The notes beneath the pieces are model-generated. The model had not been told where the DNA came from. It did no database searches and saw only the letters and a program-made list of their open reading frames with translations. Below are positions 16,996 to 59,233 of a DNA stretch of 64,000 nucleotides, piece by piece. Both the position numbers and the translations under genes were made by a program. The DNA comes from Xanthobacteraceae bacterium (GTDB taxonomy: Bacteria > Pseudomonadota > Alphaproteobacteria > Rhizobiales > Xanthobacteraceae). The stretch's first letter is position 1, and each line of letters opens with the position of its first letter. The stretch is taken from positions 62,001 to 126,000 of the forward strand of contig JALHRD010000006.1 of assembly GCA_022841625.1 (NCBI GenBank). Reading direction: 5' to 3'.

Positions 16996-17871
16996 ATGAG
17001 CAATGCCGAAGTCGCAGTGGCCCCAAGGAGTCAATACGTCGATTTCTGGAACAGTGTGCTCGTCCCGAAATTCGTTCGATGGCGCCATGTCCTCGTCGGT
17101 GGACTGACGCTACACAGCGCCAAGGTCTTCCCCACTCTCGCAGTGCGTCCGGGCGACAAGGTGGTGGATGCCGGATGCGGCTTCGGCGATACCGCAATCC
17201 AGCTAGCCCGTTTGGTCGGCCCGTCCGGCTCGGTTCTCGCCATGGATTGCTGCGATGGCTTCTTGCAGTACGGACGTCGGGACGCCGAGGCGGCCGGGGT
17301 CGAAAACATCACGTTCCTGGAAGCGGACGTGCAGACTTACCCGTTCAAGCCCATCCACGACTTTTGTTTCTCGCGCTTTGGAACGCAGTTCTTCGAGAAT
17401 CCGGTGGCAGGCCTGCGCAACATGCGTGCAAGTCTCAAGCCCGGCGGCATCATGACTATGATCGTCTGGCGCGGCATCAACGACAATCCGTGGCTCGGAT
17501 TTGCGAAACAGGTTGTGCTGCAATATCTGCCGCCGCCGGGCGAAAACGCGGCAACCTGCGGGCCAGGACCATTCTCCATGGCTGATACCGGTGTGGTAAC
17601 CAAACAGCTAGAAATCGCCGGCTACAAGAGCATTGAATTTGAGCAGGTAGATGCGCAAGTGTTCGTCGGCAAGGATCTGGACGACGCCGTGGCCTTCCAA
17701 CTTGCTGTAGGGCCAGCGGGCGAAGTTTATCGCGAGGCGGGTAAGCTGGGCGAACAGCGCCACGACGAGATCGCCCAAGCGCTCAAGGCCGAGCTCACTA
17801 AGTATCAGCGGCCCAACGGTATCATAATGGACTCGAGTTCCTGGAAGGTGACCGCCAAGAACCCGGAATAA
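16996..17871 (+). CDS. Class I SAM-dependent methyltransferase
   Basis: A 291-aa methyltransferase: motif I VVDAGCGFGDTAIQLA, post-I AMDCCDGFL, then EADVQTYPF and LKPGGIMTMIVWRG. The C-terminal part (about 190-290) is longer than in the previous gene and carries a FEQVDAQVFVGKDLDDA segment seen in ubiquinone-biosynthesis-like enzymes. The ATG at 16996 has a GAGG site seven bases upstream; a GTG at 16909 would add 29 unlikely residues. Substrate unknown. A gene-free kilobase follows. Confidence 0.87.
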   Translation: MSNAEVAVAPRSQYVDFWNSVLVPKFVRWRHVLVGGLTLHSAKVFPTLAVRPGDKVVDAGCGFGDTAIQLARLVGPSGSVLAMDCCDGFLQYGRRDAEAAGVENITFLEADVQTYPFKPIHDFCFSRFGTQFFENPVAGLRNMRASLKPGGIMTMIVWRGINDNPWLGFAKQVVLQYLPPPGENAATCGPGPFSMADTGVVTKQLEIAGYKSIEFEQVDAQVFVGKDLDDAVAFQLAVGPAGEVYREAGKLGEQRHDEIAQALKAELTKYQRPNGIIMDSSSWKVTAKNPE

Positions 17872-18123
17872 ATACCGGGAGGCAGACGCAAGATAGTCGT
17901 TGCTGCCCTTTTCTCGACAACAAGCAGCCGTCGTCCGCGTCGACCTTGCGCCAGCTATACTCTTTGTCTTCCTGCCACCGCCCTAGCGGTTTAGTACAAT
18001 AAATTTTTTGCGACGCCGCATATTTTTGCGACATAAAGGCGCCCGACTTCCGGGTTGGGTCAATCGCGTCGCGTCGTCGATGAGTGATGTCCGCACGGCT
18101 CAGATAGCGGAACCGCGTAAATG

Positions 18124-18170
18124 CAGAAGCCCGGATTGCGCGTCTGCAACACCGGGACGGTGGGCTTCTG
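18124..18170. repeat. Inverted repeat CAGAAGCCC...GGGCTTCTG
   Basis: Perfect 9-bp arms at 18124-18132 and 18162-18170 around a 29-base loop that holds a further TTGC/GCAA pairing. There is no T-run directly after the right arm; ATTTTTGG comes eight bases later, so a plus-strand terminator is conceivable but imperfect. Confidence 0.45.
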
Positions 18171-18412
18171 ATGTACGATTTTTGGGGATAGCGCGCATTG
18201 TTTCAGTTAGCGCTGCGGCATCGGCACTTCTCACGGGTTTGTGACGCGCGTTTTGAAAACTTATCAACATTGCCATATTCGCTGTGTCCACAATGGCGGA
18301 CCCCGCTTCATTGACTCACCACATTTTCATGCAAAGGGTTTCGTCGTTCCGTCCCCTGAGAGTGCTCGTCGCGAGGCATTGCACGGATAGGATGGAATGC
18401 GGTGTCCTGCGG

Positions 18413-18709
18413 GCTGCTCCATGCAAGCAGCACTCGGGAGGCCACGGGAAACGGACCCCCGCCACTAAGAGCGGACGCAAGGAGCTTGCAGGTGCCTCGG
18501 CGTTGTAGCGTGTAGACAACGCCGCCCACCGCGCCGTCCCGGGGTCAGCGTCAATGCCGCAGCGGGGCGCCGAGAGGCGAACATCCCGCGTCATGGGATG
18601 TGAGACGCCTCGCAAGCGTCTGCGGGCCTACGTTACTGGCCCGCCTAAGGGGTGCCGATGCACCCCGAGCGTCTTTCGGCGCTCCACTCCCTCATTGTCG
18701 AATGAGGGA
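18413..18709. ncRNA. Candidate structured RNA: array of consecutive hairpins
   Basis: Perfect stems follow one another: GCTGCT/AGCAGC (18413-18431), GGCGTTGT/ACAACGCC (18499-18523), GAGGCG..ACATCCC/GGGATGT..CGCCTC (18574-18611), GCGGGCC/GGCCCGC (18622-18644), GGGGTG/CACCCC (18649-18666), GAGCG/CGCTC (18667-18684) and TCCCTCATT/AATGAGGGA with a 4-base loop (18688-18709). Adjacent stems are often separated by only a few bases. The strand cannot be decided because every stem is symmetric. Alternative: a composite of mobile palindromic repeats. Confidence 0.4.
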
Positions 18710-18782
18710 CAATTAGCAAAGCTCGGAGGGTATGTCCTCGCGAGAACGATGAGGCATGAGTGAACTGTGCAGCGGAGTTTGC

Positions 18783-18864
18783 AGGGTGGGTTAAGCGTAA
18801 ACGAAACCCACCGTCTGTCAGCAAAAAAGGACACGGTGGGTTTCGCTAACGCTCAACCCACCCT
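18783..18864. repeat. 32-base inverted repeat (AGGGTGGGTTAAGCG...CGCTCAACCCACCCT)
   Basis: Arms 18783-18814 and 18833-18864 are complementary at 29 of 32 positions around an 18-base spacer containing AAAAAAGG. The core GGTGGGTTT(C/A)GC is of a kind common in Bradyrhizobium-type intergenic DNA. It sits 54 bases beyond the 3' end of the molybdenum hydroxylase gene and could end transcription from either side. Confidence 0.65.
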
Positions 18865-18917
18865 TTGTAAGCTTACGCGGGAATGAGCGGGATAGGCCGG
18901 TGATCACATCATACACC

Positions 18918-21242
18918 CTACGACGGCCGCGCCTCATGGATCGCCCGCCACACCCGCTCCGGCGTCGCCGGCATTTCAATGTGGCGGACGCCGTAAACCG
19001 ACAGCGCATCGACGATGGCATTGGCCACCGCCGGCATGGCGCCGACGCAACCGGCCTCGCCGCAGCCCTTGACACCGAGCGGATTGGTCGGCGTCGGCAC
19101 CGGGTTGGAGTGGATGTTCAGCGCACTCATATTGTCGGCGCGCGGCATCGCATAATCCATGAACGAGCCGGTGGTGAGCTGACCGGACTCGCGATCGAAA
19201 TGGATATCCTCCATCAGGATCTGCCCGATGCCCTGCGCAACGCCACCGGTGATCTGACCATAGACCAGGAGCGGGTTGATCACCGTACCGACATCGTCGA
19301 CTACGCTGTAGCCCACGATATCGACCTGCCCGGTCTCCTCGTCGATCTCGACCTCACAGACATGGGCGCCATTGGGGAAATTCTCGACATCCGCATAGAA
19401 CACCGACGTGGCGATCAAGCCGGCTTCCATGCCTTTCGGCAACTTGGCTGGATTGGCGGCGGTGCGCGCCACATCGCCAATTGTCATCGTCTGGTTGGAC
19501 TTTGCGGACGAGAAGATGCCGTCCTCAAATTTGATGTCCTCGATGGCCACCTTGAACGCATGCGCGGCGATTTTCTTGCCCTTTTCGATCACCTTGCCGG
19601 CCGCGCCCGCGACCGCTGAGCCGCCGAGCGTGGCGGAACGCGAACCACCGGTACCTTCGCCGTAAAACACCGTGTCGGTATCGCCTGAGATATAAGTGAT
19701 GTCCTTCGGATCGACGCCGAGACGGTCGCACACAATCTGCTTGAACGCGGTCTCATGGCCCTGGCCCTGATTGTTCGAGCCGGAGAACAGCGTGATCGTG
19801 CCGGAGCGATCGAACCGAATTTCCGCGCCTTCGGAACTTGGCGCGGCGGCGCGTTCGATGGTGTTGGAGAAGCCGAGCCCGCGCAGCTTGCCGCGCTTGC
19901 GCGATTCGGCGCGGCGCTTCTCGAAGTTCTTGGCGTCGCCCATATGCAGGGCCTCGTCCATGTTCTTTGCGAACTCGCCGGAATCGTAAGTGAAGGTGAG
20001 GCCGGTCTTGTAGGGCATCGCCTCCGGCGGAATTGAATTCTTCCGCCGCAACACCGCTGGGTCGATCCCGAGTTCGTCGGCGGCGACGTCGACCATGCGC
20101 TCGATCACATAGGCGGATTCGGGCCGGCCATTGCCGCGATAAGGCCGCACCGGATTGGTGTTGGTAAACACCGCCGTCACGTCGACATAGACCGCGGGTG
20201 TCTTGTAGACACCCGCCAGCGTGCCAAGATTGCCGACAAAAGATTGCCCGCCGACCTGCAGGAATGCGCCGACATTGGCGATGGTTTTGACGCGCAGCCC
20301 CAGGAAGTTGCCCTCCTTATCGAGCGCCAGTTCAGCGTCGGTGACATTGTCGCGCGCCTGACCGTCACTGAGGAAAGCCTCGGAGCGCGTGCTGATCCAT
20401 TTCACCGGCCGACCGGTGACTTTGGCCGCCCACAGCACCAGCGCGACCTCATTATAGACCGCGCTCTTCATGCCGAAGGAACCACCGATATCGCCCGATA
20501 CTACCCGCACTTTGTGCTCCGGAACCTTCAGCACGAATTTGCAAAGTTCCTCACGAAACGTGAAATTGCGCTGCAACGTGGTGTAAATTGTGTAGTGATC
20601 GTCATAGGGACGATAGATTCCGATCGAGCCGCGCGGCTCCATGCTGGCGGCGGTGACGCGGTTGATCACAAAGCTGTGCTTCACCACATGCGCCGCCTGG
20701 GCGAAGGCTGCGTCGGTTTTGGCTTTGTCGCCTTCGAGATGCACGAAGCAGATGTTGTTGGGGCAATCGTCCCACACCAGCGGCTTGCCCGGATTGATTG
20801 CGTCCGCGGTCGCGACAATCGCCGGCAGCGCCTCGTAGTCAACCTCGATCAATTCCGCCGCATCCATCGCCTGGTGCGTGGTCTCGGCCACGACAAAGGC
20901 CACATAATCGCCAACCCAGCGCACGCGGTCGCGGGCGAGCGCCCGATAGCGCGGCCGGTACAGCGGGGAGCCATCACGCCGTTTCGGACCGGACGGCACT
21001 GGAAGGTCGCCAAACCCGGAATTGTCCCAGTCCTCGCCGGTCAGCACCGCCAGGACGCCAGGGGCGGCCTTCGCCTTGGACACGTCGATTCGCTTGATCC
21101 GCGCATGGGCGTGCGGCGAACGCAGCACATAGCCCGGCACGGTGCCTGGGAACATCATGTCGCCGACATAATTGCCCTCGCCCCTGATCAGCCGCGGATC
21201 TTCAAATCGCGGGACCGGTTGACCAATTCCCCATTCACCCAC
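18918..21242 (-). CDS. Xanthine dehydrogenase-family molybdopterin-binding large subunit
   Basis: A 774-aa CoxL-like catalytic subunit of a molybdenum hydroxylase. It opens GIGQPVPRFEDPRLIRGEG. The active-site loop reads PYRGNGRPE (form II-like AYRGAGR pattern, not the AYxCSFR of true CO dehydrogenase). KGCGEAGC near the C-terminus carries the catalytic Glu. Such enzymes hydroxylate purines, N-heterocycles or aromatic thioesters; CO oxidation is unlikely. I start at GTG 21242, seven bases after AGAGG, rather than an upstream TTG. It is separated from medium and small subunit genes by 3.5 kb or more; the M and S at 27750-29122 are likely partners. Divergent from a TctC-like gene. Confidence 0.92.
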   Translation of the reverse strand: MGEWGIGQPVPRFEDPRLIRGEGNYVGDMMFPGTVPGYVLRSPHAHARIKRIDVSKAKAAPGVLAVLTGEDWDNSGFGDLPVPSGPKRRDGSPLYRPRYRALARDRVRWVGDYVAFVVAETTHQAMDAAELIEVDYEALPAIVATADAINPGKPLVWDDCPNNICFVHLEGDKAKTDAAFAQAAHVVKHSFVINRVTAASMEPRGSIGIYRPYDDHYTIYTTLQRNFTFREELCKFVLKVPEHKVRVVSGDIGGSFGMKSAVYNEVALVLWAAKVTGRPVKWISTRSEAFLSDGQARDNVTDAELALDKEGNFLGLRVKTIANVGAFLQVGGQSFVGNLGTLAGVYKTPAVYVDVTAVFTNTNPVRPYRGNGRPESAYVIERMVDVAADELGIDPAVLRRKNSIPPEAMPYKTGLTFTYDSGEFAKNMDEALHMGDAKNFEKRRAESRKRGKLRGLGFSNTIERAAAPSSEGAEIRFDRSGTITLFSGSNNQGQGHETAFKQIVCDRLGVDPKDITYISGDTDTVFYGEGTGGSRSATLGGSAVAGAAGKVIEKGKKIAAHAFKVAIEDIKFEDGIFSSAKSNQTMTIGDVARTAANPAKLPKGMEAGLIATSVFYADVENFPNGAHVCEVEIDEETGQVDIVGYSVVDDVGTVINPLLVYGQITGGVAQGIGQILMEDIHFDRESGQLTTGSFMDYAMPRADNMSALNIHSNPVPTPTNPLGVKGCGEAGCVGAMPAVANAIVDALSVYGVRHIEMPATPERVWRAIHEARPS

Positions 21243-38633: not shown

Positions 38634-40016
38634 TCAAGCGCAAAGACCGATGATTTCGCGCGCATCGCCGAGCTTATCGAGTTGCCATGCCGTCGCGGCG
38701 ATTTGCCGCGCGCGGTCGTCGCCGAGCGCCAGTGTGGCATTGGCAATGAACTTATCCTCGAGCGCGCGGTCGGACATCGGATTATCGACGGTGCCGCTGG
38801 CATGGGCGACATGCGCCTCGATCCGCTCGCCGGAGGCGGTCACCAGCGTCGCCCGCGCCTCGTCCTTACGGAGGCTCTCGTCGGTCGACACCGTGATCTT
38901 GTCGCGCAGCGCCGCCACGTCGGCAGCCGCCGCCCGCGCATCCGAGAACTGAGCAATGCCGGCGCCGCGGTCGAGATAGGCCACCGCGCTGGCGTGATAG
39001 ATGCTGAATTTCGATTGCAGTCCCGTTTTGGGATCGCCGAGGCCGGTGATCCGCACCGCGATTGGGTGTACGCGCGCCTCAATCCGCCCAATCGCATCGG
39101 GTGTGAGCAGGCGTTTGCCGCCGAGCGCCACCATCGCATCGAGGATCGGATGAAGCACAACGCCACAGGCATAGGGCTTGTAGCCGTTGCGGGTGATCTC
39201 CCAGCTTGTCCCGAGCGCGTCGAGCACCAATTCCGGCTTGGCAATATTGCTGTAGATCCGCGCGAAGCCACGTTTGCCCTCGACGATCTCTTCGGAACTG
39301 TCGACGCCCTGCTGCGCCAGCAATGCCGCCAGCAATCCATTCGACGCCGCGCGGCCGGCGTGGAACGACTTGCACATGGTGCCGCGGTTCTGCTGCATGC
39401 CGGCGGCCTGGGTCGCGGCAATACCGAGCGCATGGGTCATCTGCTGCGCGTCAAGACCGAGCAGCCGTCCACACGCTGCGCCGGCCGCGATCGTGCCGAG
39501 CGTGCCGGTGAGATGCCAGCCGCCATCGTGATGGCCGGGCGCCGCCTGCCCGACCCGCACGCCGGCCTCGAAGCCGGCAGCATAGGCCGCAATCAGCGCG
39601 CGACCATTGCAGCCGCCGCGTTCGGCGAGCGCAAACAACGCCGCCAGAATCGGCGACGATGCGTGTAGCACCACCCCGCCCATATGGGTGTCGTCGAAAT
39701 CGAGCATGTGGCCCATTTGCCCGTTGGCAATCGACGCTTCGGTCAGCCCAAGCTTGAGATTGCGGCCGAGCACCGTCGCCTGCGGTTGCGCATTCAACGC
39801 CTTCAGCACCGGCAGGAGTTTATCGACCGTCGGATGCCGACTACCGGCGAGCGCGCAGCCGATCCAATCGAGCACGCCTCGGCGCGCTTGATGCACGGCC
39901 GTCTCGGGCAGATCTTCAAATCGCAAGCGTGCCAGGAACGCCGCGAGGCCGCGCGTGACGCCAAGCCCCAACGGCACTGCGCCGTAATCGGACTTGCTAG
40001 CGGCTTGTGATGTCAT
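38634..40016 (-). CDS. MmgE/PrpD family protein
   Basis: A 460-aa member of the MmgE/PrpD family, which includes 2-methylcitrate dehydratase, cis-aconitate decarboxylase and iminodisuccinate epimerase. Characteristic parts: VLDWIGCALAGSRHPTVD, ANGQMGHMLDFDDTH (aspartate-rich active-site loop) and NGYKPYACGVVLHPILDA. I start at ATG 40016; upstream frame is shadow. It sits eight bases after the SDR stop and 57 bases before the Bug gene. The exact reaction cannot be assigned. Confidence 0.88.
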   Translation of the reverse strand: MTSQAASKSDYGAVPLGLGVTRGLAAFLARLRFEDLPETAVHQARRGVLDWIGCALAGSRHPTVDKLLPVLKALNAQPQATVLGRNLKLGLTEASIANGQMGHMLDFDDTHMGGVVLHASSPILAALFALAERGGCNGRALIAAYAAGFEAGVRVGQAAPGHHDGGWHLTGTLGTIAAGAACGRLLGLDAQQMTHALGIAATQAAGMQQNRGTMCKSFHAGRAASNGLLAALLAQQGVDSSEEIVEGKRGFARIYSNIAKPELVLDALGTSWEITRNGYKPYACGVVLHPILDAMVALGGKRLLTPDAIGRIEARVHPIAVRITGLGDPKTGLQSKFSIYHASAVAYLDRGAGIAQFSDARAAAADVAALRDKITVSTDESLRKDEARATLVTASGERIEAHVAHASGTVDNPMSDRALEDKFIANATLALGDDRARQIAATAWQLDKLGDAREIIGLCA

Positions 40017-56928: not shown

Positions 56929-57933
56929 TCAGCGCCCCGTACGCGCGAGCGCGCGCCGCAACAAGTTCTGAAATCCAACTTCGTCATCGAACGCCAGCGT
57001 AACCGGCAGTGCGCGCGACCGTGCCGCCAGTTGCGCGACCGCGTCATCGCCCTGCATCCGCGCCAAGTCTTTCTCGGTGGTCACCAAAACGAAGCCGGCG
57101 CGATCGGCTTGCGCGCACAACGCCTGCGCGTCAGCTTGCGTAAAGCGATAATGATCGCCGAAACTGCGGGTCGCCGCGACCGCGATGCCCGCGCCGCGTA
57201 GCGTTGCAAAGAACTTCTCGGGATCGCCGATACCGGCGAAGGCCAGCACCTGTTTACCGGCAAGCGCGTCGATCGTCGGCCGATCGGCGACAAGCTTCGC
57301 ACCGAACACCGCCAGGCCGCGAGCCTGCGCCGACGCCTTGATGTCGTTGGCCGGCTCGGAGCCGACCACGATCAAGGCCTGGGCGCGATCAAGCTGGCCA
57401 TCGAGCGGCGCGCGCAGCGGCCCCGCCGGAATCACCCGACCATTGCCGACGCCGCGCCGGGCGTCGACCACCAGCACGGAGAAATCTTTGATGAGCGCAG
57501 GATTCTGAAATCCATCGTCCATGACAATGACACTGGCGCCGGCCGCCGCCGCGGCCTGCGCGCCGCGTGCCCGATCGCGCGCCACCACGGTCGGCGCGGC
57601 GCGCGCCAGCAGAAACGGCTCATCGCCAACATCGAACGCGCGATGCCGCGACGGATCGACCAGGACCGGACCGGGCTGCCGCCCGCCATAGCCGCGGCTC
57701 AAGAACACTGGCGATTCGCCACCGGCCCGCAGCAAGCGCGCCACGGTCAGCGCGACCGGCGTCTTGCCGGCACCTCCGGCGGTCGGATTGCCGATGCAGA
57801 TCACCGGCACGCTCGCTCGCAATCCACTGCGCACCAGACGCCGTGCGGCGACCGCGCCATAGACGCCAGCCAATGGCGCAAGCAGCACGGCGGCAATGCC
57901 GGCCCGCCGCCACCAAAACCGCGGCTCACGCAT
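56929..57933 (-). CDS. lpxK: Tetraacyldisaccharide 4'-kinase
   Basis: Phosphorylates the 4' position of the lipid A precursor at the inner membrane. 334 aa. An N-terminal membrane helix (about 12-30, AGIAAVLLAPLAGVYGAVAA) is followed by the Walker A motif GNPTAGGAGKTP and FLSRGYGG. DDGFQNPALIKD holds the conserved DDGFQ. The ATG at 57933 overlaps the end of waaA by eight bases. Convergent with DUF2093. Confidence 0.95.
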   Translation of the reverse strand: MREPRFWWRRAGIAAVLLAPLAGVYGAVAARRLVRSGLRASVPVICIGNPTAGGAGKTPVALTVARLLRAGGESPVFLSRGYGGRQPGPVLVDPSRHRAFDVGDEPFLLARAAPTVVARDRARGAQAAAAAGASVIVMDDGFQNPALIKDFSVLVVDARRGVGNGRVIPAGPLRAPLDGQLDRAQALIVVGSEPANDIKASAQARGLAVFGAKLVADRPTIDALAGKQVLAFAGIGDPEKFFATLRGAGIAVAATRSFGDHYRFTQADAQALCAQADRAGFVLVTTEKDLARMQGDDAVAQLAARSRALPVTLAFDDEVGFQNLLRRALARTGR

Positions 57934-59233
57934 GGCTGCCGCGGCGTTCCAGCCGGATCTGCATGAAATAAGGATCGAGCGCGGCCAGAGTTCGCTCGAG
58001 CGCGCCGCCAAGTTGATCGACGGTCTTGCGCGCGGCGCCGGTGATCGCGGCGCGCGCGGTCGCATCGGTCAGCAGCGCATCAATCCGGGCCGTGAGACCA
58101 CCGACCTCTGTAATCTGCTCGGCGCCGCGCGCGCTATCGAGCGCCTCATACAATTCGGCAAAGTTCCAAACATGCGGTCCGTGCAGCACCGCCGCTCCAA
58201 GCTTGATCGGCTCCACCGGATTCTGGCCGCCGTGGCTCGCAAGCGACCCTCCCATGAACACGACCGGCGCCAAACGGTAGACCAGCCCGAGCTCGCCCAG
58301 CGTATCGAGCACATAGATCTCGTCCTGCGCATCGGGCAGCCGGCCGCGCGACCGCAGCGAAGCGGCGAGACCCGCGGCGCGCGCGATTTCGACAATGCCC
58401 GGTCCGCGATCCGGATGGCGCGGCGCAATGATGGTCAAGAGCCCCGGAAATGCGCGGCGCAAACGCCGGTGCGTCTCGATCAGCACCGCCTCTTCGCCGG
58501 CATGGGTCGAGGCTGCGGCAATCGTGGTGCGGCCGCCGACCGCGTCCCGCAACTGGCGTAGACTTTCTTGATCGGCGGGCGGCTCAGGCACATCGAGCTT
58601 GAGATTTCCGGTGGTCGAAATGCGCGGCGCGCCAAGATCGCGATAGCGCTCAGCATAGGCCGGCGACTGCGCCAGGCAAAGATCAAATCGGCGCAGCAGC
58701 GCCGCGATCAATCCGGGTGCAAAGCGCCAGCGATTAAACGAGCGCTCGGACACCCTGCCATTCACCAGGATCAGCGGTACGCGACGCTCCGCGCTCATCT
58801 GGATCAGATTCGGCCACAGATCGGACTCCGTAAACAGGCCGAGGTCCGGTTTCCAATGATCGAGAAAGCGCGCGATAAAGCGCGGCACGTCCAGCGGAAC
58901 AAATTGATGGATAACACCCGGCGGCAGCCGCTGATCGGCGAGTCTGGCCGAGGTCACCGTCCCCGATGTCAGGAGCACTTTGAAATCCTTGGCCACGATG
59001 CGTTCGATCAGCGGGATAATCGCGGCAACCTCGCCAACGCTCGCGCCGTGAATCCAAATCAGCGGACCATCCGGCCGGGCCACATGCGTTTCACCGCGCC
59101 GCTCGCCGAGCCGCGCAGCGTCTTCCTTCCCGCGCCGGAGGCGGTGCGAAAGCATGACACTGGCCAGCGGTGCGCCCGCCATCATTGCCAGCCGATAGGC
59201 CCGCAATGCGACCGGCAATGGCAGCACCGCCAT
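57926..59233 (-). CDS. waaA: 3-deoxy-D-manno-octulosonic acid (Kdo) transferase
   Basis: Adds Kdo to lipid A precursor using CMP-Kdo (GT30 family). 435 aa from ATG 59233; a TTG nine codons earlier is also possible. Short N-terminal anchor (about 8-30), WIHGASVGEVAAIIPL, LFTESDLWPNLI and the nucleotide-sugar region GGSLASHGGQNPVEPIKLG. Overlaps lpxK, so the two lipid A steps are coupled. In related genomes an acyltransferase gene often lies between waaA and DUF4170; it is absent here. Confidence 0.95.
   Translation of the reverse strand: MAVLPLPVALRAYRLAMMAGAPLASVMLSHRLRRGKEDAARLGERRGETHVARPDGPLIWIHGASVGEVAAIIPLIERIVAKDFKVLLTSGTVTSARLADQRLPPGVIHQFVPLDVPRFIARFLDHWKPDLGLFTESDLWPNLIQMSAERRVPLILVNGRVSERSFNRWRFAPGLIAALLRRFDLCLAQSPAYAERYRDLGAPRISTTGNLKLDVPEPPADQESLRQLRDAVGGRTTIAAASTHAGEEAVLIETHRRLRRAFPGLLTIIAPRHPDRGPGIVEIARAAGLAASLRSRGRLPDAQDEIYVLDTLGELGLVYRLAPVVFMGGSLASHGGQNPVEPIKLGAAVLHGPHVWNFAELYEALDSARGAEQITEVGGLTARIDALLTDATARAAITGAARKTVDQLGGALERTLAALDPYFMQIRLERRGSHA

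Follow-up and report, generated by a model that had tools for sequence, protein, structure and literature searches.

OLE, ROOL and GOLLD are long, elaborately folded noncoding RNAs whose function is poorly understood. In the available part of PMC12286853, large structured bacterial RNAs are described as few, several of them without an assigned function; the ROOL RNA studied there has 659 nt, many GOLLD RNAs exceed 800 nt, and in one strain ROOL is reported to be as abundant as 16S rRNA. REP/BIME palindromes are intergenic, dispersed and rich in hairpins. HEARO likewise occurs as dispersed copies. The HEARO and OMEGA RNAs of IsrB and IscB also approach the locus described here in length, with 343 nt given for one of them in the same part of PMC12286853.

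The locus lies in a 64,000-nt stretch of a Xanthobacteraceae genome, the whole of which is termed the window. Like OLE, ROOL and GOLLD it appears to specify an elaborately folded noncoding RNA, but it differs from them in having only ~400 nt and many dispersed copies per genome, and their Rfam models do not match it. Unlike HEARO and OMEGA RNAs, it has no Rfam match, and the IscB domain PF14239 was found in none of eight carrier genomes, in a search without a positive control (also none of 14 control genomes). While it shares its intergenic position, dispersal and hairpins with REP/BIME palindromes, it differs from these in forming a coherent ~400-nt unit with long-range stems and a promoter-like element. 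The comparisons below make it probable that this unit is a stand-alone structured noncoding RNA gene, one copy of a dispersed multi-copy family whose RNA would act in trans.

Architecture of the unit

An earlier note on this DNA had called attention to seven consecutive perfect hairpins at 18499–18709. When perfect stems (≥5 bp, loops of 3–12) are collected greedily, exactly seven fall in this interval, totalling 49 bp. Across 1000 dinucleotide-preserving shuffles the averages are 2.1 hairpins and 11.4 bp, and neither seven hairpins nor 49 bp is ever attained. Across the whole 64 kb, none of 638 segments of 211 nt taken at steps of 100 nt attains 49 bp; the best starts at 18501 with 47 bp, and the segments starting at 39501 and 57701 also hold seven hairpins with fewer base pairs. 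The stretches 39401–39711 and 57601–58011, among the next highest in stem density after 18499–18709, are GC-rich and coding in appearance, with 5–7 short perfect stems in every 211 nt. The further hairpin noted at 18413 is present at 18412–18431. Folding of 18360–18780 as RNA gives z = −4.3 on the plus strand and −3.3 on the minus strand, beating shuffles on both strands and more strongly on the plus strand. The sole overlapping open reading frame of at least 80 aa is a 99-aa minus-strand frame at 18316–18615.

The hairpins are part of a larger coherent unit running from ~18347 to ~18760, an extent taken from the alignment of 15 segments (14 from the same genus and one from another); in DNA searches, relatives of parts of 18345–18758 are found mainly in the same genus. 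The unit is flanked by a methyltransferase-like gene ending at 17871 on the plus strand and, convergent to it on the minus strand, a xanthine-dehydrogenase-like gene whose end is at 18918, both named by reading their translations rather than from a search. All features of the unit lie on the plus strand, as does an upstream module (18171–18350) with TTATC/GTCCACA-like motifs and a promoter-like element at 18311–18339. This element consists of TTGACT (18311–18316), a 17-nt spacer and, at the −10 place, AAGGGT, which is a poor match, and it occupies the same position in homologues.

From its predicted 5′ end, the RNA would begin with stem P1 (18347–18354 paired with 18390–18397, spanning 18347–18397), which encloses P2 (18362–18384). 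The hairpin at 18412–18431 follows, then the short hairpin CCGC-CACTAAGA-GCGG (18459–18474), whose loop is CACTACGA in several relatives, the short hairpin GCAAGGAGCTTGC (18477–18489) and an 8-bp hairpin (18499–18523). A closing stem of 18 pairs, one of them a C-A mismatch in the window, joins 18562–18579 to 18670–18687. Within it lie HA (18581–18601, 7 bp perfect), HB (18603–18621, 6 bp perfect), HC (18622–18644, 7 bp) and HD (18649–18666, 7 bp), the last two of which are found in some relatives only. The count of seven given in the earlier note is correct, yet one member, the 5-bp hairpin at 18667–18684, does not stand as a conserved element. It overlaps the closing-stem 3′ arm at 18670–18687 and uses most of it, and is therefore an alternative to the conserved fold. 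Beyond the closing stem are a 9-bp hairpin of CCCTC..GAGGG type (18688–18709), a 3′ stem of the form CTCG-GAGG..CCTC-GCGAG (18722–18744) and a conserved 3′ segment beginning GAACGATGAGG (18744–18760), with likeness to relatives stopping at ~18758–18764.

Two repeats neighbour these features. At 18783–18864 a 32-nt inverted repeat of REP type, 91% complementary, has relatives in a number of the family's genomes, and at 18056–18160, upstream of the module, another repeat has relatives at two loci of the same genome.

Covariation and the conserved fold

Conservation of the fold was assessed in 56 representatives, which are what remains at below 90% identity of 64 matches counted after exclusion of same-place sense duplicates, and which were aligned with MAFFT without fitting to a structure. 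Over 32 pairs (closing stem 18, HA 8, HB 6), 93.8% of cells are paired, and two-sided changes occur in 206 cells at 18 pairs. In HA and HB all pairs show two-sided changes (8/8 and 6/6), with 86.0% and 92–95% of cells paired, respectively. Slid partners, used as a control, are paired in 33.8–53.1% of cells with 23–55 two-sided cells. Among 500 shuffles none equals the observed values on four measures and one does so for the count of pairs changed on both sides. The set was gathered with a model that already contained the closing stem, HA and HB. A count on the 53 rows left after removal of three representatives, two of them fitting the inner hairpins badly, gives the same picture, with 94.3% of cells paired and 205 two-sided cells. 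Compensatory changes of this kind, proposed as a check in the earlier note, are what a stand-alone structured noncoding RNA calls for, and its suggestion of a structured RNA is borne out by them.

The changes are also asymmetric between strands. Read on the plus strand and with one G-U-rich pair excluded, the stems contain 96 G-U cells as against 28 A-C cells. By stem, in the 53 rows, the ratio is 42/3 for the closing stem and 20/3 for HB, and just 27/18 for HA. Such a G-U excess is the expectation if selection acts on a plus-strand RNA.

The number of stems, whose free variation the earlier note had named as a refutation, varies in part. Relatives have between two and four hairpins inside the closing stem, HC and HD being present in some and absent in others, and the window's genome holds an internal deletion and short bodies, described below. 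Among the 56 representatives, gathered as stated with a model containing these stems, 97.2% of closing-stem cells are paired, as are 86–95% of those in the two common inner hairpins.

These data bear on whether the row of hairpins is a cluster of mobile palindromes of the REP/BIME kind, acting at the DNA level and having no RNA role. REP-like palindromes do lie beside the unit and inside hairpin loops of relatives, and to this extent the composite of mobile palindromes envisaged in the earlier note is retained, at the edges only (18783–18864 and the loops of some relatives). The strand-specific surplus of G-U relative to A-C, the long-range pairs of the closing stem and P1, and promoter-like words at a fixed spacing all run counter to a palindrome cluster, which we consider extremely improbable. 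In two loci, palindromic repeats of type AAGCGCGTTCACGCGCGTCTTCGACGCGC are inserted in hairpin loops and the stems are retained.

The ends of the predicted RNA and its adjacent genes

P1 lies outside the search model and is hence free of gathering bias. In 41 copies hand-picked from 82 for a recognisable 5′ motif at a plausible place, P1 is paired at 8/8 positions in 35 (33 distinct arm pairs, with the register left free), compared with a mean of 10.6 and a maximum of 17 of the 41 when the right-hand segment is letter-shuffled. The −35-like element is placed ~36 nt upstream of P1. A −35-like word, counted as TTGAC, TTGAT, TTGCA or TTTAC, starts 44–49 nt ahead of the 5′ motif in 30 of the 41 copies; of 164 control segments 75 nt long, 23 contain such a word at any position. 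TTGAC itself is present in 27 of the 41, at 40–62 nt. Given the usual spacing, transcription would start at the first bases of P1. Nine of the 41 copies have no −35-like word in the last 75 nt, several of them having TTATCCCC instead. A consensus scan did not report the window promoter TTGACT/AAGGGT, and no terminator-like site was found in 17860–18930.

Other words recur in this region. Seven loci carry TTATCCCC or TTATCAAC just upstream, at or before the −35 place. These words resemble DnaA boxes. At six further loci, repeated or palindromic words like ATTCCTA/TAGGAT overlap the promoter in the manner of a repressor operator.

At the 3′ end, the closing stem is followed in many copies by the CCCTC..GAGGG-type hairpin and then by a nested stem, at 18722–18744 in the window, or by another fold. 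In a number of other genomes the loop of the 3′ hairpin can instead pair with a downstream run, for example CCCC/GGGG or CCCG/CGGG. The resulting 3′ pseudoknot is only suggestive, as some candidate can be drawn in 49 of 82 rows, a count that includes several spurious ones and has no shuffle control. A word within two mismatches of GGCTGTTTGACA follows 21 of 80 distinct copies, and the reversed word follows none of the 80. We take a word of this type to be boxA, the site of NusB and NusE. Eight of these 21 copies come from a single genome of the family, G124, and its 16S leader holds GGGCTGTTTGACAGGTGAATCGG, which is nearly the same as the tails of many G124 copies.

The boxA of rRNA is the subject of PMC4807359 and PMC10250234, as far as their available parts go. 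The likeness to an rRNA leader extends to GGGCTGTTTGACA-NN-TGAATC, present in several G124 copies and in the G124 16S leader. The arrangement is nonetheless different, since here the word stands after a structured RNA and not before a ribosomal RNA, and no such word within two mismatches follows 59 of the 80 distinct copies, that of the window included. Its position after the unit in some genera suggests that elongation or maturation of the RNA may involve Nus factors.

A boxA-like word after about a quarter of copies would also fit a cis-acting leader, whether riboswitch or antitermination element, controlling the downstream gene. Shortly after several copies come an RBS-like word and a start codon that open a sense frame. 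Gene context was compiled for 84 rows, corresponding to 78 distinct places after removal, partly by hand, of six duplicates. The next downstream gene is sense at 43 places, antisense at 32 and of unknown orientation at three, so that sense is somewhat commoner. However, the consistent sense gene that a riboswitch or leader would have downstream was not found among the 78 places. The 32 antisense neighbours, the varied kinds of downstream frame and, in the window, a convergent next gene argue against a leader, and mixed orientation together with varied frames makes a general cis-regulatory role unlikely; we would give control of the downstream gene only a slim chance. At two places, in two genera, the frame just after the unit begins, by reading, like a GMC-type oxidoreductase. 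With a simple hexamer gene model applied to the 3′ domain only, this domain has no overlap with predicted genes in the 84 rows.

Distribution and spread of the copies

Of 198 genomes sampled from the same family, 83 are matched, often several times, by a covariance model of the 3′ domain built on nine sequences (R1); these carriers come from 27 of the 47 genera sampled. An exact-pattern scan of genome contigs returned 79 stretches. By hand count, 65 of them are confirmed by R1 at E ≤0.01, and the titles of these name Rhodoplanes, Pseudolabrys, Xanthobacteraceae, Bradyrhizobiaceae, Hyphomicrobiales and less closely placed (Alpha)proteobacteria. The 14 that were not confirmed include all those from Coriobacteriales, Rhodobacteraceae, Planctomycetota, Frankiales, Gammaproteobacteria, a delta proteobacterium and Acidobacteria, together with some alphaproteobacterial ones. 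Records of two named strains, Rhodoplanes elegans DSM 11907 and R. tepidamans DSM 9987, contain matches. Beyond the family, the model R2, run over 297 genomes of the order, matches three: that of the window itself, a second from its family and, at E 9e-4, a member of a different family. Among 337 genomes of the class, R1 matches only the window's own; with at most 10–11 candidates scored per genome, both are weak negatives. In viral contigs the closing-stem pattern and the boxA-tail pattern gave one stretch each, the latter with only 3348 of 34276 bases covered, and R1 confirmed neither (best E 0.26). Neither the window unit nor a G124 copy has a match in plasmid records.

No Rfam 15 family, HEARO, OLE, ROOL, GOLLD and BjrC included, matches the window at its gathering score, and no tRNA or tmRNA was found there. 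With E relaxed to 10, 17870–18920 has six matches, all below gathering, and the single one on the unit is Ms_AS-8 on the minus strand (E 6). At 23 distinct loci of relatives, Rfam searches with E up to 5 or 1 place none within the unit. The titles and abstract openings returned by literature searches contained no description of such an RNA, and the terms sought in PMC11109978 do not occur there. On this comparative evidence, the structured RNA family is real and is without an Rfam 15 match.

The behaviour of the copies is clearest in G124, which has at least 29. For 27 of them the nearest body is 93–99% identical over ~388 nt, and for the other two 78%; pairwise identities range from 69% to 99%. 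Excluding the two divergent copies, alignment columns 24–263 are nearly invariant, HA and HB are the most variable, and the first 24 columns and the 3′ hairpin vary moderately. A guide-like hypervariable segment is not indicated, as variation in HA and HB amounts to a few block types that keep the stems. The surroundings are far less alike: upstream flanks resemble each other in 2 of 406 pairs and downstream flanks in 79 of 406, where a repeat common to many copies follows. Three promoter types, distinguished by reading, do not track the bodies, and for all five copies with a type B promoter the nearest body is a type A copy. One copy is 5′-truncated, and no target duplication was recognised by eye. 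In the window's genus, no copy was present in the flanks fetched around the two closest homologues (85% identical) of the downstream gene and three weaker ones, or in those of an upstream-gene homologue. As homologues of the downstream gene occur in congeners without an adjoining copy, the site is not conserved. Because flanks and promoters differ, bodies are alike and sites are empty in congeners, the copies would appear to move or be lost while their bodies are homogenised, for which gene conversion is the simplest account.

The window's own genome differs in holding one full copy by R1. Parts of 18171–18355 are matched at 13 other places in it. At one, 18173–18351 is joined directly to 18680–18764, an exact internal deletion, and at other loci the upstream module precedes a short body, after which, in most cases, CTGTAAGATCG-like repeats come next. 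The family may therefore be shrinking in this genome. At eleven loci the upstream module is accompanied by a short GC-rich body, an A-rich tract and inverted CTGTAAGATCG-like repeats, and the exact CTGTAAGATCG 11-mer occurs 39 times in the window's genome, as against zero for its backward control.

The main rival to a trans-acting RNA is a selfish element: a mobile, non-autonomous unit without host function, whose structured RNA would promote the element's spread in the way of HEARO/OMEGA or intron-like RNAs. The dispersal of 29 or more copies in G124, most of whose upstream flanks are unrelated and one of which is truncated at its 5′ end, points in this direction, as do the unconserved site in the genus, the patchy occurrence with variable copy number and the internally deleted copy in the window's genome. 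Set against this, no gene was found inside the window's unit, PF14239 is missing from the carriers (as from the controls), and the reshuffling of bodies and promoters fits gene conversion as well. We regard a selfish element as unlikely, at a level that keeps it in contention. The stand-alone RNA gene is preferred, with support from the −35-like element ahead of P1, the plus-strand fold, the likeness of bodies within one genome despite differing promoters and upstream flanks, and a 3′ domain that does not overlap predicted genes. Against it stand the poor −10 and lack of a boxA in the window copy and the short bodies of related loci in its genome.

As a stand-alone gene, the unit would be transcribed from its own promoter into a stable RNA. 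The predicted plus-strand fold comprises P1/P2 and several 5′ hairpins, then the long closing stem with its two to four inner hairpins, and lastly either a 3′ stem or a possible pseudoknot. Bound by a protein or another RNA, the transcript may act in trans as a scaffold, and copies would spread to new sites and be kept alike by gene conversion. A bolder proposal, to which we attach rather low confidence, is a new class of large RNA with at least 29 copies in one genome, homogenised like a ribosomal gene family, transcribed with the rRNA-type boxA antitermination machinery and assembling in this bacterial family into an abundant particle of RNA, or of RNA and protein. The boxA tail raises a possible link between a non-ribosomal RNA and the factors of rRNA transcription. 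Strong covariation, the promoter-like element, a 5′ end that can be predicted, the many copies in some genomes and the matches in named strains make expression, structure and the effect of deletion directly testable.
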